DNA of 64,000 nucleotides from Amycolatopsis albispora (GTDB lineage Bacteria; Actinomycetota; Actinomycetes; Mycobacteriales; Pseudonocardiaceae), in assembly GCF_003312875.1 (NCBI RefSeq), contig NZ_CP015163.1:434001-498000 (forward strand), read 5' to 3'. Positions within the stretch are counted from its first letter, which is position 1. Each line of letters opens with the position of its first letter. Position numbers and translations under genes: made by a program. The notes below the pieces were generated by a model, which was not told where the DNA came from, made no database searches, and saw nothing but the letters and a program-made list of their open reading frames with translations. Of this stretch, positions 2,794-26,823 are shown piece by piece.

Positions 2794-2823
2794 GCCTCAT
2801 CGGCGATGCCGGCGTGCTGTTCA

Positions 2824-2923
2824 TTCATCAGCACGATGATCATGTTGAGCGAGCTGATGCCGCCCATGGGTTGGGTCGCGCGAGGATCTCGGCGAACCTC
2901 TGCCGGTAGTCGTCAGTGGCCAT
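2824..2923 (-). pseudogene. decayed copy of the halogenase-linked carrier protein gene
   Basis: This is the start of a second copy of the carrier-protein gene found intact at 15809-16090. The first ~15 residues (MATDDYRQRFAEILA) match, then 49 bases are missing relative to the intact copy, which shifts the frame. The phosphopantetheine-site segment (GISSLNMIIVL) survives in another frame just before the homology ends at about 2824. Everything downstream of that site is absent. It cannot encode a working carrier protein. Confidence 0.85.
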
Positions 2924-3809
2924 CGGACTCGACCTTCGGGAAGGGGAAGCCGTTGAGGTTCTCCCGGTACATCCGGTTATGCCCGTACTTGTCTTCGCCG
3001 GACACCATGACGCATCCGTGGTAGTCGAGGTCGATCGCGTCGCCGAACCCGCTGAGACGGTTGATGTGCTCGTAGACCCGCACGGACGGCGGGATGTAGC
3101 GGGACACCAACCCGACGCGCTTGTCGGCACTGACGTTCGGGTGCGAGCCGTGGACGCACTTGTCCAGGAAGATGACGAACTGGCCGGGCTTCAACTCCAT
3201 GTCGACGATCTCGTGACTGTTCGGATCCCAGTCCTTGTCGAGCTTGAGCTCCGCGTAGTCGTAGCCGTTGTGGGACTTGTTCTCCACGTTGTAGGACTGC
3301 TTGTGGCTGCCGGGCAGGAAGCGCAGGCAGCCGTGCGCCTTGTCCGTCTCGGAGAAGGCCGTCCAGACGAACAGCTCCCGCGTGGCGGCCGTGGACTCCT
3401 CGGTGTAGCGCAGCGAGGGATACGAGCGGGTTTCCGACTCGTTGTACACAGTGAATGCCTCGACCTGGTGCCAGCCCGTTCCCGAGTCGCCGGGCTCTTT
3501 CTCGAAGATGTGCGTCTTCCAGCACATGATGTCGTTATCCATGAGGCTGCGAAGCTTGTGGACGATCGCCGGGTGGGCGATATGCCGGGACAGCGCTTCA
3601 CAGTCGAGATGGCGGTCGTAGTTGATGATGGTCGAGTCGTGCGGCTTGTTCTCGGACGTGACCATATCGATCATGGCTTGGCTCCAGACCAGCGGAGCCT
3701 CGTCCTCGGCATAGAGGTCGAACGGCCCGAGGAACCCGTTCTCGTTGAAGGACTCCACCTGTTCGGCCGTCAGCCCTCGGATCGCCGGGTCGCTCGTGCT
3801 TTCCGCCAC
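2913..3809 (-). CDS. SyrB2-type Fe/2-oxoglutarate halogenase-like protein, shortened copy
   Basis: This 298-residue protein is a close paralogue of the one at 16080-17009. It keeps the iron-site motif WHQV (Val where halogenases have Ala/Gly and hydroxylases Asp), the distal His (VHGSHPN) and the downstream Arg pair for 2-oxoglutarate. Compared with the paralogue it lacks nine residues after SHKQ and two more before GYDY, in the stretch that in SyrB2 follows the core beta-strands near the substrate site. I chose the GTG at 3809, which aligns with the paralogue's start and has AAGGGG upstream; an ATG at 3827 is possible. Its own carrier-protein partner is destroyed, so it would depend on the distant intact carrier or be non-functional. 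Both family and paralogy are clear; activity is unknown. Confidence 0.85.
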   Translation of the reverse strand: MAESTSDPAIRGLTAEQVESFNENGFLGPFDLYAEDEAPLVWSQAMIDMVTSENKPHDSTIINYDRHLDCEALSRHIAHPAIVHKLRSLMDNDIMCWKTHIFEKEPGDSGTGWHQVEAFTVYNESETRSYPSLRYTEESTAATRELFVWTAFSETDKAHGCLRFLPGSHKQSYNVENKSHNGYDYAELKLDKDWDPNSHEIVDMELKPGQFVIFLDKCVHGSHPNVSADKRVGLVSRYIPPSVRVYEHINRLSGFGDAIDLDYHGCVMVSGEDKYGHNRMYRENLNGFPFPKVESDGH

Positions 3810-5654: not shown

Positions 5655-7460
5655 CTACCGGCACACTCCGTAGGCCTGGCGGCCGCGCGGGCCGGTCGCG
5701 GCCCGAAGGAAGCCGGTATCCGGGTCGACACCGGCGGCGCAGACCTTGCCGAGGGTGGACGCCGGCACCACGTCGAGCCGGTGGCCCTTCCGCTCCAGGC
5801 CGGCGAGCACGTCGGGTCCGAGCGAGCGTTCCGCGACCAGCACGCCCGGCCGGGAGGCGCGCGGCGCGAACGACTGCGCGAAGTGGTCGATGTTGACGGC
5901 GGGGAGCTCGGTCGCGGCCTGCGGTTCCATCCCGAACTCCGCGATCGCGAGGAACACCTGGAGCGTCCACTGGTCCTGCTGGTCACCGCCCGGCGTGCCG
6001 AACGCCAGGAACGGCTCGCCGTCGCGCAGCACGATACTGGGGCTCAGCGTCGTGCGCGGACGCCGGCCGGGCGCCAGCGAGTTCGGGTGGCCGTCGACGA
6101 GCCAGGCGGTCTGGCCGCGGGTGCCGAGCGGGAAGCCGAGATCGGGGATCACCGGTGAGCTCTTGAGCCAGCCGCCGCTGGGCACGGCCACGGCCAGGTT
6201 TCCCCACCGGTCCGCGACCGCGACGGTGCAGGTGTTCCCGGCGCCGGCCTGCGGCGCCCCGGCGGTCACGGTGGGTATGCCGCTGCGCAGCTGGGTCATC
6301 CAGTCCGGCTCGTCGGCGCCCGGCTGCTCCGGTTTGGCCTGCGGGATCCAGGGCTGGCCGGGGCCGACCCGGCCGGGCTGGGGGTCGAGGGCCGCACGGT
6401 CGCCGATGGCCGAGCGCCGCCGCGCGGTGTACTCCGGCGCCAGGAGCTCGGCCATCGGCACCGGTGTGTGCGCCGGGTCCCCGTACCAGGCCTCGCGGTC
6501 GGCGAACGCGAGCTTAGCCGCCTCCGCGAGGGTGTGGACGTAGTCGACGGAGCCGAGCCCCATGCCGCGCAGGTCGCAGCCGGACAGGATCGCCAGCTGC
6601 TGGAGGAAGACCGGGCCCTGCGACCACGGCCCCGGCTTGTAGACGGTGAAGTCGCCGTACGGCAGCGCGCACGGTTCCTCGACGGCAGGCCGCCAGGCCG
6701 CCAGGTCGTCGCCGGTGAGCAGGCCACGGTGCCGGCCGCCGGTGGAGTCGAGCACCTCGGTGGTACGCGCGAAGCCGTCGATCGCGTCGGCGACGAAGCC
6801 CTCGTAGAAGGCCGCCCGGGCCGCCTCGAGCTGGGCCTCCCGGTCGGTCGACGCGGCCCGCGCCTCGCGCAGCAGCCGCTCGTAGGTGTCGGCCAGCGCG
6901 GCGTTGCGCATCCGGGCGCCGGCCGCCGGTACCGCGTCGTCGGGCAGGTAGGTGCGCGCGGACGCGGTCCACTCCGTCCGGAACAGCGGAGCCATCGCCG
7001 CGACCGTCGCCGCGGCGGCGGGCAGCAGCGGGTAGCCGCCGGAGGCGTACCCGATCGCCGGTTCCAGGACGGTGGCCAGTGGCATCGTGCCGAACTCGGC
7101 GAGCAGGCGCATCCAGGCGCCGAACGCGCCCGGCACGGTCGCGGGGAGCAGGCCCGCCGCGGGCATCTGCTCGATGCCGAGCGCCCCGAACCGCTCGATG
7201 GTCGTCGCCTGCGGCATCGGGCCCTGTCCGCAGATGATGCGCACCGTGCCGGCCGAGCGCGGGTAGACCGAGATCACGACGTCGCCGCCGGGCCCGTTCG
7301 AGTGCGGCTCGACCACCTGGAGGGCGAAGCCGGCGGCCGCCGCCGCGTCGAAGGCGTTGCCACCCCGGTCGAGGATGCCCATGCCGACGGCGGACGCTGA
7401 CCAGTGCGTCGAGGCCACGGCGCCGAAGGTACCGGTGAGCTGGGGTCGCAGGACGGTCAT
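5655..7460 (-). CDS. gamma-glutamyltransferase-family protein (LmbA-like)
   Basis: This 601-residue protein has the whole gamma-glutamyltranspeptidase fold: an N-terminal DRGGNAFDAAAAAGFALQVVEP segment in pieces, the GPGGD loop, and the small-subunit start GNTCTVAV with the expected nucleophilic Thr, then LSPSIVLRDG and GTPGGDQQDQW. There is no signal peptide, unlike secreted nutritional GGTs. In lincomycin, hormaomycin and pyrrolobenzodiazepine clusters a cytoplasmic homologue (LmbA and relatives) cleaves a C-C bond during 4-alkyl-L-proline formation. The neighbours here are the tyrosine hydroxylase, DOPA dioxygenase and methyltransferase of that pathway, so this is the likely role. Its ATG overlaps the stop of the cupin gene (ATGA). 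Confidence 0.88.
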   Translation of the reverse strand: MTVLRPQLTGTFGAVASTHWSASAVGMGILDRGGNAFDAAAAAGFALQVVEPHSNGPGGDVVISVYPRSAGTVRIICGQGPMPQATTIERFGALGIEQMPAAGLLPATVPGAFGAWMRLLAEFGTMPLATVLEPAIGYASGGYPLLPAAAATVAAMAPLFRTEWTASARTYLPDDAVPAAGARMRNAALADTYERLLREARAASTDREAQLEAARAAFYEGFVADAIDGFARTTEVLDSTGGRHRGLLTGDDLAAWRPAVEEPCALPYGDFTVYKPGPWSQGPVFLQQLAILSGCDLRGMGLGSVDYVHTLAEAAKLAFADREAWYGDPAHTPVPMAELLAPEYTARRRSAIGDRAALDPQPGRVGPGQPWIPQAKPEQPGADEPDWMTQLRSGIPTVTAGAPQAGAGNTCTVAVADRWGNLAVAVPSGGWLKSSPVIPDLGFPLGTRGQTAWLVDGHPNSLAPGRRPRTTLSPSIVLRDGEPFLAFGTPGGDQQDQWTLQVFLAIAEFGMEPQAATELPAVNIDHFAQSFAPRASRPGVLVAERSLGPDVLAGLERKGHRLDVVPASTLGKVCAAGVDPDTGFLRAATGPRGRQAYGVCR

Positions 7461-7867
7461 CGTTGGGTTGACCCGGTGAGCAGCAGGCCAAGGCAATACG
7501 TGCCCGGTTCGGCCTTGCGGGTGACGAAGTGGTGCACCGTGCCGGCCGGGATGAAGAATGTCGCCGGCGAGGTCAGCGTGTGGTGGCGTCCGTCGGCGAC
7601 CACCTCGATCACGCCACCGCCCGGATTCGGGGACAGCAGCAGATAGATCTCGGGACACTCGTGGGTATGCGGATCGGCCACCGGCTTTCCCACCTTGTCG
7701 CTGAGCTCGCCGCCGGCCAGCTCCAAGCACAGCCCGCCGTACATGTCGTCGGTCAGGTAGAACGGTGTGGGTGCGTGATGTCCGGGAATCTCGCGGAACA
7801 GCGGAAGATCCATTCGGGCGGCCGGGGCGGCGGCCGCGACCGCGGCGCTTGCGGAAGGGGCGTCCAT
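7457..7867 (-). CDS. small cupin protein
   Basis: This 136-residue single-domain cupin carries HTHECPEIY (first cupin motif, with metal-ligand His, His and Glu) and a second motif around PAGTVHHFV. A low-complexity Ala-rich N-terminus precedes it. It lies inside the alkylproline operon between the C-methyltransferase and the LmbA-like gene, and overlaps the latter by four bases, which implies co-translation. I know of no cupin assigned in the standard alkylproline pathway, so it may be an isomerase, a metal-dependent oxygenase or a tailoring enzyme special to this cluster. Confidence 0.75.
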   Translation of the reverse strand: MDAPSASAAVAAAAPAARMDLPLFREIPGHHAPTPFYLTDDMYGGLCLELAGGELSDKVGKPVADPHTHECPEIYLLLSPNPGGGVIEVVADGRHHTLTSPATFFIPAGTVHHFVTRKAEPGTYCLGLLLTGSTQR

Positions 7868-7913: not shown

Positions 7914-8930
7914 TCAGGCTGGGGTCAGGTGGAAGATGAAGCTGAACGCGGGAAGTTCGATGAGCCGCTGATCAGCGAGACGCCAGCCGCTCTCATCGAG
8001 CACCGAGTACCACTCGTCGAGCGTGGGCAGGTACTGGTCCATGATCGCGTGCACGGTCTCGAAGCCGAGCGTGAACATCGGCAGGTCCGGGCCTTCCACG
8101 CCGACGGACCGACAGGTGTCGCCGAGGAGGAGGTTTCGTCCGTTGGGGAAGGTCTCTCGGAGCTTCTGCAGTGTCTTCACGCAGTTGTCCCGTGGCCAGA
8201 AGTCGTGCCCCATGAGGAAGCAGGTGACCAGTTCGGCGTCGGCGTACTCCGGCCTCGGCGACATGTTCAGCACATCATCCCGAAGCAGCGTGATCCGGTC
8301 CGTCAGGTTCGCATCGCGGACCGCCTCTCCCGCGACCGCCAACGCCCCCGGGGCGATATCGACCCCGATGGCCCGGATCGCGGGTCGCCGCTCGGCCAAC
8401 ATGATGATCCGGTCGCCGCTGCCACAGCCGAGATCGGCGACGGTCGTGTAGTCGATACCGTCGAGTAGATCCCGCAGCGGCGGGTCGAAGAAGTTGCGGG
8501 CGATGCTCCGGCAGGCCACGCTGATCGCCCGCGAATCGCGGCGCATCTGGCGGTCGGCGCGTTCATCGGTGCGAACCAGGGTGGTGAGATCGGTGAAGAG
8601 CTCACCACAGCCCCTGGTCAGCCAGTAGAAGAAGCCCCTGGTACGGAACGCCTCGTCGAATCCCGGTCCGCGCCGGGCCAGGTCCGGCCCGGCGTCGACG
8701 ACCACGATCCTGCGGCTGGACAGCGCGACAAGGATCCGGCGAACCGCCTCCGGGTGGGTGCGGGTGCGGGCGGTGAACTCGGGTACGTCGACAGCCTCCC
8801 GGTCGGCCAGCTCGTCCAACAAGCCGATGTCCCAGGCCGCACTGAGAGCGGCTGCGGCCACGGCACCGTTGAAGGTATCCGCACAGTATCGCGCTTCTTC
8901 CTTGGGCAGATGGGTTGTCGCGGCGGTCAT
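7914..8930 (-). CDS. SAM-dependent C-methyltransferase (MppJ/LmbW type)
   Basis: This 338-residue protein has a helical dimerisation region (1-150), then a Rossmann SAM domain with VADLGCGSGDR. From recall it resembles the mannopeptimycin phenylpyruvate beta-methyltransferase MppJ closely in its C-terminal half (LMGHDFWPRDNCVKTL, LGDTCRSVG, MFTLGFETVHAIM, YLPTLDEW). The two His residues that bind iron in MppJ appear conserved (in MGHDFW and ETVHAI). That implies methylation at a carbon next to a 2-oxo acid. The alkylproline pathway also needs a C-methyltransferase (LmbW), and the gene overlaps the tyrosine hydroxylase gene by ATGA, so I favour that role. Beta-methylation of an aromatic 2-oxo acid is the alternative. 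Confidence 0.82.
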   Translation of the reverse strand: MTAATTHLPKEEARYCADTFNGAVAAAALSAAWDIGLLDELADREAVDVPEFTARTRTHPEAVRRILVALSSRRIVVVDAGPDLARRGPGFDEAFRTRGFFYWLTRGCGELFTDLTTLVRTDERADRQMRRDSRAISVACRSIARNFFDPPLRDLLDGIDYTTVADLGCGSGDRIIMLAERRPAIRAIGVDIAPGALAVAGEAVRDANLTDRITLLRDDVLNMSPRPEYADAELVTCFLMGHDFWPRDNCVKTLQKLRETFPNGRNLLLGDTCRSVGVEGPDLPMFTLGFETVHAIMDQYLPTLDEWYSVLDESGWRLADQRLIELPAFSFIFHLTPA

Positions 8931-9931
8931 GTAGTCCTCAACTTTCGCATCGTGGAGCTGGTCCGGAGCGTTCTCGATGGGTGGGCCTGGGTGGCCGGCG
9001 CGCTGACGAAGCTCAGGATCTCCAGGACGCAGTCCGTCAGTCCCGCCTTGCGCCGCATCACCTCCGGGGTCCGCAGGCGGGGCGGTTCCTCATGCGCGCT
9101 CGGCGCGAAGGAGGGGTACAGGCCGTTCGCGGTGAGGTCGAGAAAGATGGCGTGCAGTCGGCGGACCAGCTGGCTGCCGACAGCGAGCTGGGACACGGTT
9201 GCCCGGCTGGTCAGGAAGATGCCGTCGTACAGCCACATCAAGGTGTCCCGGGGGATCTGCTGCCGGCCCTTCGGCTTGGGACTCCGCAGCAAGGACACCT
9301 CGCCCGAGGACAGGACCTTGTCCGCGATCCCCTCGTGAACCTGCTCGTTGAGTTCGCACTCGTGGCGCAGGGCTTCCGCCACGGTGCCGGAGCCGATCGT
9401 CACCTTGCCCCGGATCAGCGGCCGGACCGGTGGATAGTCGCGGGCCCAGGCGCCGGTGAGATTGACGTGCTGGCGGGCCATCGGCATCCGGATGACCGGT
9501 CCGTAGATGTGCCGGGGGGCGGAACTTCCGTACATCAGCATCAGCGAATAGCCGCGCACCAGCAATCGCGCCTGCGTGGCGAGCTCCTCGTGTTCGACCC
9601 GCGCGGCCTCGCTCTCCCGCAGGATGGCCCCGAGCAGCTGCCACAGCAGGAAGGTGGTCTGGTGGGCGGTGATCCACCGGAACCAGAACAGACGGTCGAT
9701 GTCCTCGGCACTGTCCGGACGGAGGTCGTGGACCGACGCGGGTGACGCGTGCACCAGCCGTTTCCGCAGTTCCTCGATCCGCATCGGGTCCACGGGCACT
9801 GTTCGGGGTACCCATCGGGAGGGCAGGGCCAGCGGCTCAAGCCCGTAGGGATGACCGCCGAACTCCCATTCCGCGCCGGACGGGAGGGTGGTGGTGACGG
9901 CCGGTACCTCAAGCGGATGCATCGGCGGCAT
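8927..9931 (-). CDS. heme-dependent L-tyrosine 3-hydroxylase family protein (LmbB2-like)
   Basis: This 334-residue protein has the features I associate with the LmbB2/Orf13/SibU/TomI tyrosine hydroxylases: RWITAHQTTFLLWQL, LLVRGYSLMLMYG, an MARQH segment followed by GAWARDYPPVR, and a VHEGIADK segment whose His near residue 205 is a candidate heme ligand. These enzymes convert L-Tyr to L-DOPA with hydrogen peroxide, the first step to 4-alkyl-L-prolines. The gene sits directly after a VOC dioxygenase, overlapping it by 23 bases, as expected for the next enzyme in the pathway. The C-terminal ~35 residues look unstructured. Starts at 9931 or 9922 are both possible. Family recall, not a search, supports the call. 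Confidence 0.82.
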   Translation of the reverse strand: MPPMHPLEVPAVTTTLPSGAEWEFGGHPYGLEPLALPSRWVPRTVPVDPMRIEELRKRLVHASPASVHDLRPDSAEDIDRLFWFRWITAHQTTFLLWQLLGAILRESEAARVEHEELATQARLLVRGYSLMLMYGSSAPRHIYGPVIRMPMARQHVNLTGAWARDYPPVRPLIRGKVTIGSGTVAEALRHECELNEQVHEGIADKVLSSGEVSLLRSPKPKGRQQIPRDTLMWLYDGIFLTSRATVSQLAVGSQLVRRLHAIFLDLTANGLYPSFAPSAHEEPPRLRTPEVMRRKAGLTDCVLEILSFVSAPATQAHPSRTLRTSSTMRKLRTT

Positions 9932-10454
9932 CCGTTCCCTCGGAGGTATCCGGAAGGTGGGTGAATTCGAGCTCCAGGCCGTTCACATCGTACGCGTAGA
10001 AGCTCTGCATGCCCTGACCGTCGATGTCGATCTCGGTGGCCGGCTCGGCGCGAGCGAAGGTGAAGCGGCCCGATTCGTACAGCTCCCGATACCGGCCGCG
10101 CCACAGTCGCAGCTGTTCCGGCGTGTCGACCCGGATGCACAGGTGCTGGAACTGGTTCACCTCGCCGGCCGGCGGCCCGTGCGTACCGCGGTCGCGGGTG
10201 AACAGGTGCAGGCGGATGTCGCCCACGGCCACCTCGACCACGCGGGTCAGGCCGGGGAGCCGCTGCCGGCTCAGGTCGGAGAAGCCGCCTCGCATGTCCC
10301 AGGAGACCGTGCAGCCGAGAAACTCCCGGTACCAGAGGACGGCGTTCTCCAGGTCCATCGTCTGGATGCCCACGTGGTCGATCGCCCCGGTCAGCGGAAC
10401 CGGGCGGGCAGCGGGCTTGCCCGGCGCGGCCACGTCAGATGTGCTTGGAGCCAA
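9909..10454 (-). CDS. VOC-family extradiol dioxygenase (L-DOPA 2,3-dioxygenase, LmbB1-like)
   Basis: This 181-residue protein contains one vicinal-oxygen-chelate domain: AIDHVGIQTMDLENAVLWYREF at the front, FQHLCIRV in the middle and ELEFTHLPD at the end. His in DHVG, His in FQHL and Glu in LEFTH are the likely iron ligands. Size and position match LmbB1-type enzymes, which cleave the DOPA ring so that it recloses to a pyrroline. I chose TTG at 10454 because AGGAGAG precedes it by five bases; longer frames upstream look non-coding. It is followed with overlap by the tyrosine hydroxylase. Confidence 0.82.
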   Translation of the reverse strand: MAPSTSDVAAPGKPAARPVPLTGAIDHVGIQTMDLENAVLWYREFLGCTVSWDMRGGFSDLSRQRLPGLTRVVEVAVGDIRLHLFTRDRGTHGPPAGEVNQFQHLCIRVDTPEQLRLWRGRYRELYESGRFTFARAEPATEIDIDGQGMQSFYAYDVNGLELEFTHLPDTSEGTDAADASA

Positions 10455-10513
10455 GGTTCTCTCCTGTCTTCGGAGGAGTTCCGCATTTCCCGGGCAGCCG
10501 GCGGCTCGCGTGG

Positions 10514-11377
10514 CTATGTGCAGGGGGACCGTTCGATGGTGAAGTAGCGACGCAGCTCCTCGATGTGCCGGAGGGCTTCGGTGTCCTCGCAAGCGCGCGC
10601 GATGTCAATCATCGTGCTCCACACGAAGTCGTCGCCACCGTCGTACCGGTAATGCTTTTTGATGACGATGCTGAATATCTCGTCGACCGTTTCCATTGTC
10701 ATGACGTCGGCGAGCCGCAATAGGCTGGCGCGGTCGGCATCGGTGACCGGTGGTCGTTTGACCATTCGGTCCTCCGGAATGCCGGCGTCGGCGCTGTGGC
10801 CCGGGATCGTGATCAACGGTTTCTCGGACGGCACGTTCACGAAGTCGAGCATGAGGTGGATCCGCGCCTCGGTGGAGAGCACCGCCAGCGAGTGGATCAC
10901 TGAGGCGTCGAGGAACCAGATCTCGCCCCGGCGCATCCGGTACACGGTGTTGCCCTCGCTGAACAAGCAGTTCTCGTTGGTGACGAGGGGGATGTGCGCC
11001 CGGTGGGCGTTGCGGGTGTCGTCCGGGATGTCGCTGAGCTCGAGCAGGTCCCGGTGCGGCATGGCCACGCTGTTCTGTACCTTCGCGAGCCGCACGAAGT
11101 TCAGCCGGTCCAGATCGACAACCGTGCTGATCAGCTCGCGGAGATAGGGAAGCTGGTTGCCGTACTCCGTGAACGCGCCGGGCTGGCGGTGATCGTATTT
11201 GGTGACCACCCCGTCGCCATCGGCTCCGCCCGGGGTCCAGAGCATGCAGCTCCTATAGGCGCCACGGGAAACGTAGTCGCTGTGCGCTTCGGACCACGGA
11301 AGTGAATCGCTGTGCTCGAGGTCTTTGGAGAGGCGGACGTCATCGAGTGACGTTTCCGCTACATAGTGGGTTCGCAT
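10514..11377 (-). CDS. Fe(II)/2-oxoglutarate dioxygenase, proline 3-hydroxylase-like
   Basis: This 287-residue protein resembles Streptomyces L-proline 3-hydroxylase: an N-terminal MRTHYVAETSLDDVRLSKDLE segment in pattern, the iron motif MPHRDLLEL (His-X-Asp), RMRRGEIWFLDASVIHS with the distal His, and RIHLMLDF with the Arg for 2-oxoglutarate. Unlike the halogenases of this cluster the carboxylate ligand is present, so hydroxylation is expected. Its place between the DOPA dioxygenase and the F420-type reductase suggests that a proline or alkylproline, free or carrier-bound, is hydroxylated. I start at ATG 11377 to match the family; a TTG at 11389 has a better purine-rich leader. Confidence 0.82.
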   Translation of the reverse strand: MRTHYVAETSLDDVRLSKDLEHSDSLPWSEAHSDYVSRGAYRSCMLWTPGGADGDGVVTKYDHRQPGAFTEYGNQLPYLRELISTVVDLDRLNFVRLAKVQNSVAMPHRDLLELSDIPDDTRNAHRAHIPLVTNENCLFSEGNTVYRMRRGEIWFLDASVIHSLAVLSTEARIHLMLDFVNVPSEKPLITIPGHSADAGIPEDRMVKRPPVTDADRASLLRLADVMTMETVDEIFSIVIKKHYRYDGGDDFVWSTMIDIARACEDTEALRHIEELRRYFTIERSPCT

Positions 11378-11451: not shown

Positions 11452-12342
11452 TCACGTGTTCCGGTGACGATCCAGATCCTCGGCCACTTTCTCCAAGATC
11501 TCCACCTTTCCCGAATAGGGTTCGCTGCGCCGAGGCCACTGCACGACGGTATCCGTAATGCCGGCTTCGGCGAATCGGCCCGCTGCATCGAAGAACGCCG
11601 CCGGCGACTCGAGAACACCGCCCACGGACGGGCCGCAGACCAGCAACCGGGCCACCGTGGCCGGGTCACGGCCGACCTCCACGCAGGCCTTCTCGAGCGC
11701 CTCCACCTGCCGGCGGACGACGTGGAGCGCCTGTTCGTACGGCGCGCTCTCGACCCGGTTGGGCGCGCCCGTCGTCACCCAGTACGAGCCGTACTCGGCC
11801 GCCAAGCGCATGCCGCGGGCCCCGCCGGCGGCGACGGCGAACGGGACACGGGGCCGCTGCTGGCACAGCGGGTACGAATGAACCTCGTCGGCGACGTAGT
11901 AGCGGCCGTCGAAGGTGGTGACCGGCTGCCGCAGGAGCGAGTCGGTGAGCCGCACGTATTCCGCGAACCGCTCGGTCCGCTCCCGCCGGCTCCACGCGGT
12001 CCGGCGGGTCATGGTGGCGTCGAAGCCCTCGGCACCGGCGCCGAGACCGAGGATGAAGCGGCCGCCGGAGATGTCCTCGATGGCGGCGACTTCCTTGGCC
12101 AGGTACACCGGATGTCGCAGGTTGGGCGAGGCGACCAGGACGCCCAGCCCGATCCGTTCGGTCTCCACGGCCGCCGCGGTCAGCGTCGGGACGAGGGTGA
12201 ACCAGTCCTTCGCGCGGAACGACCGCCAGTTCAGGTGGTCATAGGTCCACGCGTGATCGAATCCCATTTGCTCGGCCCGGCGCCACTTCACGCGCGCCGT
12301 CTGCCAACGGTCCTCCGGGACGATCTGGATGCCGAATCTCAC
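11452..12342 (-). CDS. luciferase-like F420-dependent oxidoreductase (LmbY-like)
   Basis: This 296-residue TIM-barrel protein of the LLM class starts MRFGIQIVP, has SPNLRHPVYLAKEVAAIEDIS and RFILGLGAGAEGFDA (typical of F420 enzymes), and PFAVAAGGARGMRLAAEYG near the phosphate site. In alkylproline pathways the last reduction, of the pyrroline ring or side chain, is made by such an F420 enzyme (LmbY and relatives). The gene is the most upstream of the tightly grouped alkylproline genes. Cofactor choice between F420 and FMN cannot be proven by eye. Confidence 0.82.
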   Translation of the reverse strand: MRFGIQIVPEDRWQTARVKWRRAEQMGFDHAWTYDHLNWRSFRAKDWFTLVPTLTAAAVETERIGLGVLVASPNLRHPVYLAKEVAAIEDISGGRFILGLGAGAEGFDATMTRRTAWSRRERTERFAEYVRLTDSLLRQPVTTFDGRYYVADEVHSYPLCQQRPRVPFAVAAGGARGMRLAAEYGSYWVTTGAPNRVESAPYEQALHVVRRQVEALEKACVEVGRDPATVARLLVCGPSVGGVLESPAAFFDAAGRFAEAGITDTVVQWPRRSEPYSGKVEILEKVAEDLDRHRNT

Positions 12343-12435: not shown

Positions 12436-14826
12436 TCACCGGTCGTCAGCGTGTCCAGAACCGTCCTCCAGCTCTCGTCCAGCGGTTCCAGCGGTGACGG
12501 AAACCTTCGTCTCGGGTGGGCACCCTCCGTCGCGGATCGTCGCGGCCACGTCGCGCACTGTCCCGTCAAGGAGTTTCGTCAGGTCGGGCGCGGCTTGCAG
12601 GATCGCCTGGCACTCGTCGCGTAGCCGGAACGTGAGGATCGAGTGGCCGCCGAGCTCGACGAACGTGTCCAGGACGCTGATCGGCGACCGCCTCAGGACC
12701 CGCCGGTAGATCTCGACGAGGGTGGCTTCCAGCTCGTCGGCGGGGGGCACGACCGTACGCTCGGGCTCGGTCGACGCCTGCCAGATCCTGATCAGCTCGT
12801 TGTGGTCCAGCTTTCCGTTCACCGTCGCCGGAAGACGGTCCACGGGCACGACCTGCGCGGGCCGCATCTGGCGGGGCAATCCGGCCGCGAGTTCGAGGAG
12901 CGCCGCGGGGTCCAGGTCGGCGGTGGTGCACCCGCCGGCGGGGACGACGAAGGCGAGCAGGCTGGGCGGCGACCCGTGGGCGATCACCGCGCAGTCGCCG
13001 ACCGCGGGGTGAGCGGCCAGCACCGCCTCGACCTCACCGGGTTCGATCCGCAGGCCACGGATCTTGACCTGCCGGTCGATCCGGCCGAGGTGCTCCAGCG
13101 CGCCGTCCTCGCGAAGCCGGCAGAGGTCACCGGTGCGGTACATCCGCGACCCCGGCGGCCCGTGGGGATCCGCGACGAACCGCTCCGCGGTCCTGCCCGG
13201 CTGCCGCCAGTAGCCGTCCGCCAGGCCGACAACACCGCTGATGTACACCTCCCCGGGCGTGCCGACCGGGACAAGATCGAGTTTGGTGTTCAGGATGGTT
13301 GCCCGGAAGTTGTCCGCGGGACGGCCGACCGGAACGACGACGCCGTCCCAGCCGGGCTCGATGACGTTGTCGGTGACCGAACCGGCCTCGGTGGGACCGA
13401 AGGCGTTGACGAGGGTGCTGCCGGGCAGCGCGGCGTGGAAGGCCGCCGGGATCCGCGGGCTCATCGACTCGCCGCCGCACACCAGCCACCGCAGCGCGTG
13501 GGCCCCGACCCGGGACATCTCGTCCAGGAAAGCCGGCACCAGCGTCGTCACCAGGAAGATCATCGACACGTCGTGGTCCCGGATGAGCCGGGCGAGGTGC
13601 CGCGGATCGCGCTCGCCGCCGGGCCGGCAGATCATCAACCGCGCCCCGTGGTAGAGCGGCCAGAAGATCTCCCAGATGTGCACGTCGAACCCGGCGTAGG
13701 TCTTGTACAGGGCCGTATCGCCGAGATGGAACGGGTACTGGCGCTGCATCCAGAAGACGTTGGCCAGGGTGCCGGCCGTGCGGGAGGCCACGCCCTTGGG
13801 GCGGCCGGTCGTCCCCGACGTGTAGAGGATGTGGACCGGCTCGGAGACCACGCCACCCGGGCCGCCGTCGAGAACCGGATTCGTCGCGGGCCGGCGGGAC
13901 CATGTGCGCTCCGCGTGGACGTCGTGGATCTCCCACGCGCCGCCGGGCAGGCGAGCGCGGCAGGCCGGATCGGTCAGCACATGGCTTGGCGCCGAGTCCG
14001 CCAGCATCAGGGCGATGCGCTGGTCCGGCAGGTCGGCGTCCAGGGGAACGTAGGTGGCACCGGTCTTGACCGCGGCGTAGAACGCGACAACCTGGTGGAT
14101 GCCGCGCTGGAGGAAGACGCCTATCCGAGCACCCGGGCGGGCACCGCGCTCGCGCAGGTGGTGGGCCAGCCGGTTCGCGCGCTCGTTCAGCTCCCGGTAG
14201 CTGACCGTGTCCCCGTTCTCGTCCTGCAACGCGACCGAATCCGGGGTTCGCTCCGCCTGCTCCTGGAACGGTTCGGCCATCGTGCGGTATCGGAGCTGTG
14301 GGTTGAGGCCGTGCAGGATCAGCTCGCGGTCCTCGGCGCCGACCAGCGGATGGTCGAGCATCGGCCGATCGGGTTCGTTCGCCATGCTGGTCAGCAGTTG
14401 CAGGAAGGAGCGCGCCCAGGCCTGCGCGGTGGGGAGGTCGGACGAGTCCGTCATGGTCTCGACGTACAGCTGCCGGCCGGCCTGGCCGAACAGGATCGTC
14501 ACGGCGACCGGTTCGTCGTCGCCCCCCGGTCCGGGCACGGTGGTGCCCCGCGGCCGGGGGGCCTGCCGGAGCGCCTCGCGGAAGTTCAGGGACAGGTCCG
14601 GGGCGCCGGTCGCCCCAACGATCGCTTCGACCGGCCCCAGGGTGACCCGGATGCGGCAATGGGTGCCGGGGCGTGGCAGCCGCTCGGCCAGTACACCGGC
14701 GCAGAGGAACAGCGGGTCGAAGTCGTCCACGCCGGCCGCCCGGGCGAGCGAGTGCAGGGATTCCGGCACGCCGTCCGGTAGGGCGATCGGTCCGACGCAA
14801 TCCGTTGTGGACAGATACCCGCTCAC
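12436..14826 (-). CDS. NRPS half-condensation-A-T protein
   Basis: This 796-residue protein starts at a GTG that overlaps the stop of the KAS III-like gene (GTGA). Residues 1-190 match only the C-terminal lobe of a condensation domain (SLNFREALRQA, QLYVETMTDSSD); the lobe with HHxxxDG is missing, so it should not condense. The A domain (~195-690) is intact: ILYTSGTTGRPKG near 335, FGPTEAG, YRTGDL, GRIDRQVKIRGLRIE and NGKLD. The carrier follows (GGHSIL, Ser near 729). Pocket residues by alignment to PheA are roughly D-V-W-F-V-G-A-S-V, which I cannot match to one amino acid. It likely loads the substrate for the neighbouring halogenase/carrier module, as CmaA or SyrB1 do. Confidence 0.88.
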   Translation of the reverse strand: MSGYLSTTDCVGPIALPDGVPESLHSLARAAGVDDFDPLFLCAGVLAERLPRPGTHCRIRVTLGPVEAIVGATGAPDLSLNFREALRQAPRPRGTTVPGPGGDDEPVAVTILFGQAGRQLYVETMTDSSDLPTAQAWARSFLQLLTSMANEPDRPMLDHPLVGAEDRELILHGLNPQLRYRTMAEPFQEQAERTPDSVALQDENGDTVSYRELNERANRLAHHLRERGARPGARIGVFLQRGIHQVVAFYAAVKTGATYVPLDADLPDQRIALMLADSAPSHVLTDPACRARLPGGAWEIHDVHAERTWSRRPATNPVLDGGPGGVVSEPVHILYTSGTTGRPKGVASRTAGTLANVFWMQRQYPFHLGDTALYKTYAGFDVHIWEIFWPLYHGARLMICRPGGERDPRHLARLIRDHDVSMIFLVTTLVPAFLDEMSRVGAHALRWLVCGGESMSPRIPAAFHAALPGSTLVNAFGPTEAGSVTDNVIEPGWDGVVVPVGRPADNFRATILNTKLDLVPVGTPGEVYISGVVGLADGYWRQPGRTAERFVADPHGPPGSRMYRTGDLCRLREDGALEHLGRIDRQVKIRGLRIEPGEVEAVLAAHPAVGDCAVIAHGSPPSLLAFVVPAGGCTTADLDPAALLELAAGLPRQMRPAQVVPVDRLPATVNGKLDHNELIRIWQASTEPERTVVPPADELEATLVEIYRRVLRRSPISVLDTFVELGGHSILTFRLRDECQAILQAAPDLTKLLDGTVRDVAATIRDGGCPPETKVSVTAGTAGRELEDGSGHADDR

Positions 14827-15752
14827 TGCGCGCTTCCTTCGAGGAGTCCGCAGGCGTAGAACCCCGGCGCCAGGGACTGCGCCATATACGTCTGTCCGGG
14901 CTGAATGCCGAACCGCTCGTGGTAATCGGCCAGGTTGATCACCCAATCGACGTTTCCACAGTGTCCGTAGGTGGCGAGCGTGTCGGCGAAGTGCAGGGTG
15001 TCCGGGCGCAGACCGACGGATGTCGCGTTGAACAGCGTCAGCGGTTTGTGCAGGTTGGCCGCGAACACCTTGGATATCTGTGCCTGCTGCCGGCCACCGG
15101 CCCGGAGCGCCGCGGACAGCGTCCGTTCGGCGACATCCTTGCGCGAGACGAACGTGTCGAGGCCGCGCAATCCCTCCGGGTCGATCTTTATCGCGGACGA
15201 GACCAGCCGCACGAGTCCCGGCCGGCGGGCCAGCAGGCAACTCGCGGCCGCGTCACCGAATATCGCGTAGGGGAGCACCCGGTCGCGGTCGTGCGACACG
15301 AAGTCCATGGCGACGACCACCACGTGGGTCGCCTCCGGATCGGCCAACAGCCGCTGGCCGTGCCGAAGCGCGGTCAGCGAGCTGCAGCACCGCTGATAGG
15401 AGATGACATGAGGGACGCAGTCGTCCATTCCCAAGGCGAGTAGCACTCGGCCCGCGAAGTCGGACGGCAACAGAGCCAAGGTCGGGTCGCTGGTCGCGAA
15501 CACAAGGTGGTCGATGTCCGCGGCGGCGACGCCGGCGTCCCGGAGGGTTCGGCGCACGGCGTCCACGACATAGTCTTCGACCGGCCCGGACATTTTCCGG
15601 TACGTCGTACATCCCATCTCATGGAAGTCGGTGCCGAACGACACGGACTCCCAGAGGGCGCCGAAATCAGGGATGTCCTCCGGCTTGCATTCCAGATCGC
15701 CGAAGGCGCACGCGAACGAGCCGATGCCGATGTCTTCGTGGTCCGAGATCAT
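14823..15752 (-). CDS. KAS III-like thiolase-fold enzyme
   Basis: This 309-residue protein has the ketoacyl-synthase III layout: DIDHLVFATSDP, an active-site region SYQRCCSSLTAL with adjacent Cys near residue 121, FGDAAASCLL, and GHCGNVDWVINL where the GN matches the catalytic Asn region. The usual HQAN motif is not evident: the matching segment reads VFAANLHKP. Cys without the decarboxylation His suggests acyl transfer rather than decarboxylative condensation. It lies between the carrier protein and the A-T gene, so it may shuttle an aminoacyl group between the two carriers, the task CmaE/SyrC do with another fold. Start ATG 15752 has GAAGGGA upstream. Confidence 0.82.
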   Translation of the reverse strand: MISDHEDIGIGSFACAFGDLECKPEDIPDFGALWESVSFGTDFHEMGCTTYRKMSGPVEDYVVDAVRRTLRDAGVAAADIDHLVFATSDPTLALLPSDFAGRVLLALGMDDCVPHVISYQRCCSSLTALRHGQRLLADPEATHVVVVAMDFVSHDRDRVLPYAIFGDAAASCLLARRPGLVRLVSSAIKIDPEGLRGLDTFVSRKDVAERTLSAALRAGGRQQAQISKVFAANLHKPLTLFNATSVGLRPDTLHFADTLATYGHCGNVDWVINLADYHERFGIQPGQTYMAQSLAPGFYACGLLEGSAQ

Positions 15753-15808: not shown

Positions 15809-16090
15809 TCAGGACCGAGCCGGTTCGACGCCGACCGCATCGATCTCGCGGAGGACGGAGACGATGCCGTCGATGTCGTTGAGCCGGGGGACCCATTCCG
15901 GGCGGACTGTGATGGTGCCGTCCGTGTACTTGTTGATGTAGTTCATCAGCACGATGATCATGTTGAGCGAGCTGATGCCCAGTTCCTGCCGCGACCGCGC
16001 CCGGGCGACCTGCTCGTAGGTGAGACCGTCGCCGAAAGGTTGAGTCGCGAGGATCTCGGCGAACCTCTGCCGGTAGTCGTCAGTGGCCAT
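15809..16090 (-). CDS. free-standing acyl/peptidyl carrier protein
   Basis: This 93-residue carrier protein has the phosphopantetheine attachment segment LGISSLNMIIVL (second Ser of ISSL is the attachment residue). Its ATG lies inside the end of the halogenase gene (overlap of 11 bases), so the two are co-translated. SyrB2-type halogenases act only on amino acids tethered to a carrier protein; this is the obvious partner. A broken duplicate is at 2824-2923. Confidence 0.9.
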   Translation of the reverse strand: MATDDYRQRFAEILATQPFGDGLTYEQVARARSRQELGISSLNMIIVLMNYINKYTDGTITVRPEWVPRLNDIDGIVSVLREIDAVGVEPARS

Positions 16091-17009
16091 CGGACTCGAC
16101 CTTCGGGAAGGGGAAGCCGTTGAGGTTCTCCCGGTACATCCGGTTATGCCCGTACTTGTCCTCGCCGGACACCATGACGCATCCGTGGTAGTCGAGGTCG
16201 ATCGCGTCGCCGAACCCGCTGAGACGGTTGATGTGCTCGTAGACCCGCACGGACGGCGATACATAACGCGACGCCAACCCCACGCGCCTGGTGGCACTCG
16301 TGTTGGGGTGCGAGCCGTGGACGCACTTGGCCAGGAAGATGACGAACTGGCCGGGCTTCAACTCCATGTCGACGATCTCGTGACTGTTCGGATCCCAGTC
16401 CTTGTCGAGCTTGAGCTCCGCGTAGTCGTAGCCGAAGAAGTCGTGGGCCTTGTTCTCGACGTTGTATGTCATCGGCTTCGACTCGTCGTAGTACCACTGT
16501 TTGTGGCTGCCGGGCAGGAAGCGCAGGCAACCGTGCGCCTTGTCCGCTTCGGAGAAGGCCGTCCAGACGGTGAGCTCCTGCGTGGCGGCCGTGGACTCCT
16601 CGGTGTAGTGCAGCGAGGGATACGAGCGGGTTTCCGACTCGTTGTACACAGTGAATGCCTCGACCTGGTGCCAGCCCGTTCCCGAGTCGCCGGGCTCTTT
16701 CTCGAAGATGTGCGTCTTCCAGCACATGATGTCGTTATCCATGAGGCTGCGAAGCTTGTGGACGATCGCCGGGTGGGCGATATGCCGGGACAGCGCTTCA
16801 CAGTCGAGATGGCGGTCGTAGTTGATGATGGTCGAGTCGTGCGGCTTGTTCTCGGACGTGACCATATCGATCATGGCCTGGCTCCAGACCAGCGGAGCCT
16901 CTTCCTCGGAGTAGAGGTCGAAGGGGCCGATGAACCCGTTCTCCGTGAAGAACTGGACTTGTTCGGCCGTCAGACCCTGGGTCACCTTTTGGACAACGCT
17001 TTCAGCCAC
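15942..17009 (-). repeat. halogenase/carrier duplication, complete copy
   Basis: This is the complete counterpart of the block at 2824-3809. The stretch 16610-16877 is identical to 3410-3677. This copy holds the full halogenase and the site-carrying half of the carrier gene and is embedded in an intact operon, so it is the likely parent. Confidence 0.85.
16080..17009 (-). CDS. SyrB2-type non-heme iron halogenase with His-Gln-Val iron motif
   Basis: This 309-residue phytanoyl-dioxygenase-fold protein is recognisably SyrB2/CytC3-like: ENGFIGPFDLYSEEEA, GDSGTGWHQVEAF, LTVWTAFSEADKAHGCLRF, FFGYDYAELKLD, PGQFVIFLAKCVHGSHPN and a YGHNR segment near the end. His114 and His231 are the likely iron ligands, with Arg near 242-248 binding 2-oxoglutarate. 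The residue two after His114 is Val116, where halogenases have Ala or Gly and hydroxylases Asp/Glu. With no carboxylate ligand a halide could bind iron, so a carrier-bound substrate is probably chlorinated, or a different radical outcome follows. Start is GTG 17009 after GAGGAGG. It heads an operon with its carrier, the KAS III-like enzyme and the A-T protein. Confidence 0.85.
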   Translation of the reverse strand: MAESVVQKVTQGLTAEQVQFFTENGFIGPFDLYSEEEAPLVWSQAMIDMVTSENKPHDSTIINYDRHLDCEALSRHIAHPAIVHKLRSLMDNDIMCWKTHIFEKEPGDSGTGWHQVEAFTVYNESETRSYPSLHYTEESTAATQELTVWTAFSEADKAHGCLRFLPGSHKQWYYDESKPMTYNVENKAHDFFGYDYAELKLDKDWDPNSHEIVDMELKPGQFVIFLAKCVHGSHPNTSATRRVGLASRYVSPSVRVYEHINRLSGFGDAIDLDYHGCVMVSGEDKYGHNRMYRENLNGFPFPKVESDGH

Positions 17010-19238: not shown

Positions 19239-19484
19239 TCAGGTGGGGAGTTTCCGGGCAGCCAGATGGGGTTGCCGACGATGGCGCCGGCTCCGTCGCG
19301 CACCACCGGCCGCCTCGTCGGTGACGCCAATGAGCTCGCCAACCGCTGCCAGCAGCTCGGCCAGGCCTTCCGGCAGGTCTCCGACGGGTGCGGCAAACAG
19401 CAGTTTGTAGTCCCCGGCATCGGCGGCAAGCTCGATCGGCGTGGCACCCCCGGCCGGGTAGACCACGACCACTGGGCTGGTCAT
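19239..19484 (-). pseudogene. short stub, possible ATP-grasp N-terminal remnant
   Basis: This 81-residue frame overlaps the stop of the desaturase gene by ATGA. Its first 60 residues (PVVVVYPAGG, LFAAPVGDLPEGLAELLAAVG, ELIGVTDEAAGG) resemble the N-terminal domain of ATP-grasp ligases, then it runs into basic low-quality sequence and stops. It may be the relic of a truncated amide-forming ligase. The resemblance is weak. Confidence 0.35.
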
Positions 19485-23496: not shown

Positions 23497-26400
23497 TCAT
23501 CGCTCTTCGGCGTCGCTCAGGCGGCTGGCGAGGGCGGCCACCGTCGGCGCCTCGAAGAGGGCACGCAGGGCGACCGTGCGCCCGACAACCTCGCTGAGCC
23601 GGGTGACGACGGTGACCGCCAGCAGCGAATGCCCGCCCAGTTCGAAGAAGTTGTCGCGCCGGCCGACCCGGGGCACGGCTAGCACCTCGGCCCAGATCGC
23701 GGCGATGCGCTCCTCCATCGGCGTGCTCGGCGACTCGTACTGGGCCGCCCCGGCCCACTCCGGCCCGTCGTACAGCTGCGGCAGCGACCGCCGGCTCAGC
23801 TTCCCGCTGGGCGTACGCGGCAGCTCGGTCACCGGCTGGTAGGCAGCCGGCACCAGGTAGTCGGGCAGGCGGTCGGCGAGGAAGGCGCGGAGCTCGGCGG
23901 CGGTCGGCGGGGCGTCCGAGTCCGGCACGACATAGGCGACCAGGCGGACGTCGCCGGCGCCGTGGCGGTGGGCGGAGACGGCGCACTCCCGCACGCCCGG
24001 GCAGCCGGTGAGGACCGCCTCGATCTCGGCGACCTCCACCCGGAACCCGCGGATCTTCACCTGGTCGTCGAAGCGGCCGATGAACTCCAGTTGGCCGACG
24101 GCGTTCCAGCGGACTCGGTCACCGGTGCGGTACATCCGGGCCCCAGTGCCGAACGGGTCGGGCAGGAACCGCTCCGCCGTCATCTCCGGGCGACCGAGGT
24201 AGCCGCGGGCCAGCGCGAGGCCGCCGACGAACAGCTCGCCGGCCACGCCGGGCGGCACCGGCCGCAGTTCGGCGTCGAGCACGTACGCTCGCACGTTGTC
24301 GAAGGGCCTGCCGATGGGTGGCAGCTCCGCCCACGTCGTCGGATCGGGGTCGAGCTGGTGGGAGGTGGCCAGGTGCACCTCGATGGGTCCGTACTGGTTG
24401 TACAGGGTGCAGGCGGGCATCTGTTCGAAGAAGGCTCGAATCGCCGGGGTGGCCTGGAGCTGCTCGCCCGCCGTGAGCACCGCACGCAGCGACCGCGGGA
24501 TCCGGCCCAGGCGCACGGCCAGCTCGGCCAGCCCGCGCAGGGCCACGAACGGCATGAATATCCGCTCGATCCGCTGCTCGGAAATCACGTCGAGCAGCCG
24601 TTCGAAGTCGTGCCGGACCTCCTCGCTGACCAGGACGAGCGTGTCGCCGACCGACAGCGTGGTCACCATCTCCTGGTAGAAGATGTCGAAGCTGAGCGCG
24701 GCCCACTGCAGCGTGCGTCCGCGTCCGCCGGGGCCCTGGCGCCGCTGCCACTGCGCCTGGTTGTGCAGGGCGCGGTGTGACATGGCCACGCCCTTGGGCG
24801 TGCCGGTGGACCCCGAGGTGTAGAGCACCCAGGCGATGTTGGCCGGGTCGGCCAGGTTGGGCGGTCCGGTCGCGTCGCACGGTGTGCCGAACACGTCGAG
24901 CGCCAGCACCCGCTCCGGCTCGGCGGCCCTGTCCGGTCCGTCCCGATCGCGGATCAGCAGTCGCAGGGCCGCGTCCTCGGCGATCAGCTGCTGGCGGGCC
25001 ATCGGGTAGGTCGGGTCGATCGGCACACAGGCTCCGCCGGCCTTGAGCACCGCCAGGTTGGCGACCACCATGTCCAAGGATCGGTGCAGCGCGATGCCGA
25101 CCCGTTCGTCGGGGCCGACGCCCAGCTCGCGCAGGTGCCGGGCCAGGGCGTTCGCTCGGTGGTCCAACTCGCGGTAGGTCAGCGCCCGGCCCTCGAACAC
25201 CACCGCGGTGGCGTCCGGCGCGGCGGTGGCCTGCCGCTCGATCACCTGGTGCAGGCAGCTGCCGTCGTCGAACCGGTTGGCGGTGTCGTTCCAGACCTCG
25301 AGGACCTCGTGCCGCTGCGCGGCGGACATCAGAGGCAGGTCGTCGATCGACACGTCGGGTGCGGCGGCGACCGCGGTGAGGAGGTTGATCAGGTAGCCGG
25401 CCAGGCGCTGCATGGTGGAGCGATCGAACAGCGCGGTCCGGTACGCCATGCCGACGTGCATGTCCCCCGCCTCGGTCTCCGAGACCGAGAGCGTGAGGTC
25501 GAACATCGCGTTCGGCTCGCCCGGCTCGATCGGCATGACGGTCAGCCCGTCGAGGAGGTCGAACGGCTCTGCCGCCAGGTAGGTGAACAGCACCTGGAAA
25601 AGCGGATGTACCGTCAGGTCCCGCTGCGGCCGGAGCTCGGCCACCAGCCGGTCGAACGGCACGTGCCGGTGCTCCAGGGCCTCGACCAGCCGAGGCCGGA
25701 GGTGGCCGAGCAGCCCGGCGAAGGTCGGCTGCCCGGCCAGGTCGGCCCGCAGCACCACCGGGTTGACGAAGTGGCCGATGTTGGCGGCGACGTCGGGGTG
25801 TGCCCGCCCGTCGACGATCATCCCGATGCTGACGTCGGTCTGCCCGCTCCACCGGTACAGCAGCGTGTGAAACGCTGCGAGCAGCACCATGAACAGCGTG
25901 GTGTCCTCGCGCCCGGCCAGTCGGCGCAGCCCGTCGGCCACCTCGGCGGGCACCGGCACCTCGACCATGCCACCGGCGAGGTCGGCGACCGCCGTCCGGG
26001 GCCGGTCCGTCGGCAGGTCGAAGACGTGCGGCGCGTCGGCCAGCCGCTCCTTCCAGTAGTCCAGGTGCCGCTTCGCCACGGCACCATCCCGGCCGTGCTG
26101 CCACAGTGCGTAGTCGGCGTACTGCATGGTCAGCTCGGGCAGCGGGGACGGGATCCCGGTCCGGTACGCCGCGTAGAGCGTGCGCAGCTCGTGGAAGAGG
26201 TGAGCGTACGAAGACCCGTCGATCACCAGGTGATAGGAGCGGAAAACCAGCACGTGCTCGGCCGGGCCGAAGCGGATCAGCTCGGTGCGGAAGTTGCGCG
26301 CCACGGAGATGTCGAACCGGTGCTCCGCGTACCTCCGCCTTCGGTCGTCCCACCACCGGTCCTGCTCGGCGACGGACAGGCCGGACACGTCCAGGAAGGT

Positions 26401-26823
26401 GAAGCGGGGGTCGCCGGCCGGCTCCACCACCTGTACCCCGATCCCGTCGCGCGCGGGGAACGCGGTCCGCAGGATCTCGTGTCGCCGCATGATCTCCGTG
26501 ATCGCCGAACGCAGGGCCGCCACGTCCAGCTCACCAGCGATGCGGTGCAGGGACGTCTGGTTGTACGCCGGCCCCAGCAGGCCCAGCTGATCGAGGAACC
26601 ACATGCCCTGCTGGTGCTCGGACAGCGGTATGCTGTCCGGCCGAGCCGCCGGCGCCGCGTCGGCGCGTATCGCGGAGATCAGCTCGTCGCGCCGCTCACG
26701 GAGCACCGCCAACCGCTCGCCGTCCAGTGCGCCGGCCGGCCGGTATCGCAGCCTGCCGTCCTGCAGCCACAGCTGGATGCCGGCCGAGCGCAGTTCCTCC
26801 AGGAGATCGGAAATCGCGAGCAC
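23497..26823 (-). CDS. NRPS docking-C-A-T module with proline-like pocket
   Basis: This 1108-residue protein begins with a TubC-like docking domain (1-50, [16 protein letters not shown]). The condensation domain (~65-490) has YHLVIDGSS, with the catalytic second His kept and the first replaced by Tyr. The A domain (~510-1010) has SGSTGTPKG and YRTGD, and the carrier site GGHSLL is near 1066. Pocket residues by eye are D-I-Q-F-L-A-Q-L-A, close to the proline pattern D-V-Q-x-I-A-H-V-V, and FDIFYQEM and FMPFVAL are hallmarks of proline-type domains. It should activate proline or, given the nearby pathway, a 4-alkylproline. There is no thioesterase, so a partner protein must follow. Confidence 0.9.

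Follow-up and report, generated by a model that had tools for sequence, protein, structure and literature searches.

What does a SyrB2-family Fe(II)/2OG enzyme do when valine takes the place of the alanine at its halide slot? The question is raised by hal1, a gene in a 64,000-nucleotide stretch of Amycolatopsis albispora DNA that was analysed as a whole (the window; Table 1). What decides between halogen and hydroxyl rebound is usually studied by mutating single enzymes; two sister clades of one family, told apart by Ala and Val in the halide slot and by a few linked changes, form a natural comparison through which the role of the slot becomes testable. A published mining tool uses HXG/A as its halogenase signature and lets users view matches that lack it (available text of PMC12871659), and a filter of this kind may therefore pass over the Val type. 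In a mostly open-access literature we found no report of Val-type halogenases or of their chemistry, and the accessible portions of work on the halide site and the HXA motif and on chloroproline and alkylproline, including PMC4019311, PMC4227530, PMC6218459 and PMC5350257, make no mention of them.

Table 1. Features of the window around hal1 and its copy
Feature	Position	Strand	Basis or remark
hal1, Val-type Fe(II)/2OG enzyme, SyrB2 family	16080..17009	-	309 aa; TIGR01762 and SyrB2/CytC3 matches
WHQV, hal1 residues 113-116	16662..16673	-	slot of SyrB2 WHQA
H231, second iron histidine of hal1 (SyrB2 His235)	16317..16319	-	alignment
C229, two residues ahead of H231 in hal1	16323..16325	-	alignment
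CP1, small putative carrier, 93 aa	15809..16090	-	start overlaps hal1 end by 11 bases
KASIII-like protein, possible acyl shuttle	14823..15752	-	weak FabH/PqsC/CorB matches
NRPS A-T protein, code DVWFVGASVK	12436..14826	-	first 186 residues without Pfam domain
F420-type LLM oxidoreductase	11452..12342	-	profile matches
Proline-hydroxylase-like Fe/2OG enzyme	10514..11377	-	1e5r E 4.3e-32; 4p7w E 8.7e-30
L-DOPA extradiol dioxygenase homologue, VOC fold	9909..10592	-	6on1 E 2.8e-51
Haem-dependent L-tyrosine hydroxylase homologue	8927..9931	-	7kqr E 9.5e-51
Methyltransferase	7914..8930	-	profile match
Gamma-glutamyltransferase (GGT) homologue	5655..7730	-	PF01019 365 bits; TIGR00066 233 bits, below cut-off 358
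hal2, duplicate of hal1, WHQV kept	2913..3809	-	loop deletion; Phe 147; Asp 227
CP1 duplicate remnant	2800..2919	-	frame broken
NRPS C-A-T, code DIQFLAQLAK	23497..26823	-	domain and code reading

The iron site of hal1 and its damaged copy

The original prediction placed hal1 among the SyrB2-type enzymes, and sequence comparison bears this out. The open reading frame starts with GTG, and its translation includes GDSGTGWHQVEAF. Residues 12-301 align with SyrB2 (2fct; E 1.5e-64) and residues 13-301 with CytC3 (3gja; E 5.5e-63), with WHQV lying on WHQA in both phmmer alignments. The protein scores 291.8 bits against the chlorinating-enzyme model TIGR01762, above the NCBI cut-off of 226.3, and also matches PF05721. 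The iron-site residues of SyrB2 are Ala118, His116 and His235 in the available text of PMC2767507. As had been proposed, the alignments put Val116 of hal1 (codon GTC, 16662-16664, minus strand) on Ala118, and hal1 reads HQV at the place of the HXA/G halogenase signature. Both histidine ligands and the 2OG arginine are present. The carboxylate of the HXD/E facial triad of Fe/2OG hydroxylases is absent from the HxD slot, again as anticipated, and Asp or Glu occurs in that column in none of the 93 rows of the final alignment described below. It had also been suggested that the glutamate after the valine (HQVE) might reach the metal. In the phmmer alignments the residue after the motif is Asp in SyrB2 (HQAD) and Ala in CytC3 (HQAA), and among the 28 Val-type rows it is Glu in 25 and Arg in three; this residue was therefore dropped as a new iron ligand.

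In a six-frame scan WHQV occurs twice in the window, in hal1 and in hal2, which are also the two family members found in the host genome (9.12 Mb, single contig). The earlier statement that both proteins read WHQV is correct as a count, but hal2 is a damaged duplicate, 91% identical to hal1, and not independent evidence. The segment WYYDESKPM and the FF pair are missing from it, and Phe147 stands where SyrB2 has Thr143. The carrier copy beside it has its frame broken at the identical place in the window and in locus L007. These three lesions argue against two working copies. The hal2 changes are shared with copies in L007 and L011, the three forming one clade, and the hal2 of L011 is itself broken. 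In our reading hal2 is a partial duplicate that has decayed. The dN/dS values are 0.22-0.37 for hal1 against its counterparts in L003, L004, L005 and L006 and 0.37-0.74 for the hal2 copies among themselves, so dN/dS alone does not separate hal1 cleanly from hal2. This poor separation, together with the decay of hal2, would suit the idea that hal1 is also a decaying, inactive paralogue; the low values of hal1 itself and a gene order kept in several genera speak against it, and we consider such a fate very improbable.

The Val-type branch and its linked changes

When one genome was scanned for each species, with HQV in one of the search patterns, 11 loci emerged, all HQV, from Actinomadura, Catellatospora, Dactylosporangium, Actinoplanes, Phytohabitans, Streptomyces, a metagenome bin and Pseudoalteromonas, the member from Pseudoalteromonas luteoviolacea being 45% identical. 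Because of the HQV in that pattern, a family model free of this bias was used next. At E 1e-30 it matched one of 396 genomes of the host's phylum, the host genome itself, and we therefore used family-level surveys and plasmid records. In the family of genome G023, 37 of 394 genomes gave 41 matches (32 Ala and 9 Val), and in the host's own family 31 of 390 gave 36 (27 Ala/Ser, 8 Val and the outlier L104). TIGR01762 scores in these two surveys are bimodal, with HQA/HQS rows at 401-475 bits and HQV rows at 285-312; hal2 scores 254, and L104, which reads HQS, 128. Twelve of 43 plasmid loci were fetched, eight with Ala and four with Val, the latter from Nonomuraea, Nostoc, Burkholderia stagnalis and Streptomyces. 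Removal of repeats and broken rows left 93 distinct rows in the final alignment (28 HQV, 63 HQA and 2 HQS).

Valine is found in all 28 rows of one clade and in none of the 65 of the other. A tree built without column 116 has a single branch dividing Val from Ala/Ser (SH-aLRT 99), and a tree of 60 rows without columns 116, 117, 227, 229, 232 and 236 gives the same split (bootstrap 100, SH-aLRT 98), which is present in 200 of 200 bootstrap trees. Since the tree is unrooted, it does not give the order of the two states. The valine is encoded by GTC, GTG and GTT, is kept down to 33% identity and ranges over actinomycetes, Nostoc, Burkholderia and Pseudoalteromonas; its fixation across the clade and the use of three codons make it more than chance. 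Sequence thus shows that hal1 belongs to a separate and conserved branch, the Val type, within the family of carrier-protein-dependent Fe(II)/2OG halogenases, and the WHQV observation is confirmed as correct, a family-wide trait and not the quirk of a single gene. By the same comparisons the Val type is a real family-wide variant of these enzymes, which is not to be counted as a proven halogenase.

Further residues around the iron site differ along with the valine. The position of SyrB2 Ser231 (hal1 227) is Ala in 24 of 28 Val-type rows, Glu in the enzymes at L018:15001, L101:3488 and L102:9482, and Asp in hal2; the HQS outlier L104 (9112-10032) also has Asp there. SyrB2 Leu233 (hal1 229) is replaced by Cys in 27 of 28, with Thr in L010, and is Leu or Met in all 65 Ala/Ser-type rows. 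SyrB2 Ala236 (hal1 232) is Gly in 27 of 28, with Ser in L011. In the MAFFT alignment Asn123 becomes Val, Ile, Met or Tyr, at a place where phmmer sets its gaps differently, and this column varies within the Ala/Ser set too (Asn in 48 of 65). The Thr143 column holds Thr or Ser in Val-type enzymes except for the Phe of the three hal2 copies. We take Ser231, Asn123 and Thr143 to surround the halide in SyrB2. Both histidines and the equivalents of Thr113, Trp145, Ser237, Arg248 and Arg254 are kept in all 28 rows; Ser237 and Thr113 serve 2OG in SyrB2 (available text of PMC2871039). Because near-fixed changes flank the second iron histidine, the site looks repacked and not merely crowded, and since all of them lie on a single branch, they would represent one event.

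The original prediction had expected the bulk of valine to crowd the halide site. The valine comes together with smaller residues beside the second histidine, and the four residues 116, 227, 229 and 232 have a lower total volume in the Val set (mean 404.6 cubic angstroms, range 397-447) than in the Ala/Ser set (mean 430.9, range 404-433), with overlapping ranges and on the assumption that all four line the site. Rough as they are, these sums speak against simple crowding. A structure predicted with AlphaFold from alignment A1 (11 rows) reached a pLDDT of 32 and was discarded, and viral contigs scanned to deepen the alignment held no relative.

Another side chain might also act as the third iron ligand, either the Cys229 thiolate or an acidic residue at 227 where there is one. 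Cys229 is confined to the Val type (27 of 28 rows against 0 of 65), and the Glu or Asp that replaces Ser231 close to the second iron histidine in L018, L101, L102, hal2 and L104 is possibly a relocated carboxylate ligand. Nevertheless, hal1 has Ala227, and L010, which belongs to a halogenase-carrier-KASIII gene group, has Thr at 229, for which Cys229 was marked down as an essential thiolate. We regard a protein ligand in the third site as improbable.

Gene neighbourhoods of Val-type enzymes

As the original prediction held, a putative small carrier, CP1, adjoins hal1. Its homologues share the motif LGISSL, LGITSL or LGIGSL, with LGISWL as an exception in the hal2-side copy of L011, but CP1 has no Pfam carrier match and a weak profile match to carriers (P 0.058), so we call it a putative carrier. 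In the adjoining KASIII-like protein, Cys122, Cys123 and GHCGN are invariant in 14 sequences (window included), and by eye the position of the usual KASIII histidine, presumably in an HQAN motif, is H, Y or F in these sequences. Four Ala-type loci have an alpha/beta hydrolase annotated beside or near the halogenase, which makes a shuttle role plausible for the KASIII-like protein.

Homologues of the Tyr hydroxylase, the DOPA dioxygenase and GGT lie together by hal1, with GGT below the TIGR00066 cut-off, and a gene set of this type makes 4-alkylprolines. From context we take the F420-type enzyme to be LmbY-like, the methyltransferase LmbW-like and GGT LmbA-like; the C-A-T code is proline-like, which fits an alkylproline. 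Several genera keep this gene order: hal1, CP1, KASIII-like protein, A-T protein, F420-type enzyme, proline-hydroxylase homologue, DOPA dioxygenase, Tyr hydroxylase, (methyltransferase) and GGT. Flanks were compared for nine loci of the one-genome-per-species scan, with the hal2 copies left out. Tyr hydroxylase, DOPA dioxygenase and GGT are all present in five of them (L003, L004, L005, L008 and L013), L006 is a contig of only 6 kb, L009 shows the F420-type enzyme and the hydroxylase only, and the flanks of L010 and L012 contain none of the three. No gene for an anion supplier stood out among the genes scanned. This counts a little against a natural role with another anion (azide, nitrite or cyanate) or a different halide preference, which the changed pocket residues would allow and for which we see very little likelihood.

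Several other genes of these loci were recorded. The contig of L006/L103 is labelled Melainabacteria and has four genes 76-84% identical to those of the window; it is probably a misassigned bin. A Na+/H+ antiporter gene (27082-28383) has counterparts near Val-type genes in L090, L092, L095, L096 and L100 and near Ala-type halogenase genes in L020, L027 and L028. The genes at 3998-4765 and 37630-38445, the latter matching DinB_2, have similar starts by eye and bracket much of the cluster. Within the NRPS cluster, 21400-22137 resembles leucyl/phenylalanyl-tRNA-protein transferases (129.7 bits, cut-off 143.6), and its product is perhaps a tRNA-dependent amide-forming enzyme. The 19481-20512 product has a desaturase fold and, among NCBIfam models, comes closest to the arginine gamma-hydroxylase GntB (223 bits, cut-off 380).

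Other Val-type genes have different partners. In the Pseudoalteromonas group (L012, L098, L099, L100 and L092), the protein ahead of the Val-type enzyme carries a proline code (DVQFVAHLVK or DVQFIAHLIK) and is A-T-TE in both loci scanned, L012 and L098. A proline-hydroxylase homologue is found in L012, L098, L100 and L092 and was not called in L099; BesC-like cluster members are found in L098, L099, L100 and L092. The BesC-like protein of L098, the one tested, scores 33.9 bits where the BesC cut-off is 500, and its sole PDB match at E 0.01 is a weak one to 4-chloro-allylglycine synthase (E 5.3e-8). In Nostoc the preceding protein has two A domains with a Thr code (DFWNIGMVHK), for which reason proline was dropped as a universal Val-type substrate. 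A DIRHFGQDVK domain occurs with an isopropylmalate synthase and a valine-pyruvate type aminotransferase in L022/L095 and L096 (L095 tested), and in L010, L018, L089, L090, L101 and L102 the KASIII-like partner stays and an acyl-ligase-like protein replaces A-T (L010 tested). A Thr code thus lies beside one enzyme of each type, the Val-type enzyme of Nostoc (L019) and the Ala-type enzyme of L023. As the adjoining adenylation codes differ (Thr, Pro and others), the valine seems tied to the iron chemistry and not to one substrate.

Possible chemistry and comparison with known systems

The reaction outcome was left wide by the original prediction, and rightly so. We give an about even chance to hal1 being a carrier-dependent radical halogenase whose halide pocket has been rebuilt. 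Its substrate would probably be an acyl or aminoacyl group attached to CP1, with the ferryl abstracting hydrogen as in SyrB2; both steps are suggested by the kept iron and 2OG residues and by the adjoining putative carrier. The halide would serve as the third iron ligand, with Val116, Ala227, Cys229 and Gly232 shaping its pocket, and the product would be a chlorinated unit, possibly dechlorinated later. The KASIII-like protein may then move the unit from CP1 to the NRPS, which may also take up 4-alkylproline. The halide is favoured because halogenation is the background of the family and because loss of the carboxylate killed P4H (D414A and D414G) and TauD, neither of which became a halogenase (available text of PMC2767507). 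Also in its favour are the TIGR01762 score, the lack of Asp and Glu in the HxD column, the single-branch split with neighbouring changes that leave the total volume no larger, the varied adenylation codes, the overlapping putative carrier and, weakly, the BesC-like protein of L098. Against halogenation stand the HQV motif in place of HXA/G, the replacement of Asn123 and the change of Ser231 to Ala, Glu or Asp.

These replacements would also be expected if Val-type enzymes bind no halide. The valine itself could fill the halide site, the iron would keep water or hydroxide at the third site or stay five-coordinate, and the radical would proceed to hydroxylation, desaturation or ring closure. By eye, Gly232 and Asn236 are common to the Val type and L104, and they resemble an HGS motif that we associate with PhyH hydroxylases; the second shell of the Val type may therefore be an older one that was kept. 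L104 also has the conserved Arg residues by eye, which are therefore not specific to halogenases. The loss of activity in the carboxylate variants of P4H and TauD (available text of PMC2767507) counts weakly against a site without halide, as these variants were not halogenases either. We hold halide-free chemistry to be the main rival and a serious possibility, though one we would not expect to prevail. Somewhat doubtful, in our estimate, is that the Val type forms a separate, non-halogenating catalytic class with a rebuilt two-His site (Val116, Cys229 and Ala/Glu227), which might close a ring, desaturate the substrate or transfer some other ligand. Such a class would be easily missed, since searches target HXA/G.

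Compared with SyrB2 and CytC3, hal1 is alignable over residues 12-301 and shares both histidines and the 2OG residues, and its neighbour CP1 is a putative carrier. It differs from SyrB2 by Val for Ala118 and by Ala, Cys and Gly for Ser231, Leu233 and Ala236; in addition, the Val type has Val, Ile, Met or Tyr for Asn123, and in the clade of hal1 the Glu of SyrB2 CWRTEFF, which we take to be Glu102, gives way to Asn or His. BesD/WelO5-type halogenases (HXG, free substrates), which presumably use no carrier, lack the carboxylate as hal1 does and are distant in sequence. BesD is 7% identical to SyrB2 (available text of PMC13244439). With ectoine hydroxylase and other PhyH-fold enzymes (HXD), hal1 has in common the PF05721 match and HGS after the second histidine, whereas its HxD slot contains neither Asp nor Glu. 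Lastly, we know of no SyrB2-type step in the 4-alkyl-L-proline pathways of lincomycin, hormaomycin and the pyrrolobenzodiazepines, with which the window shares the Tyr hydroxylase, DOPA dioxygenase, GGT, methyltransferase and F420-type enzyme.
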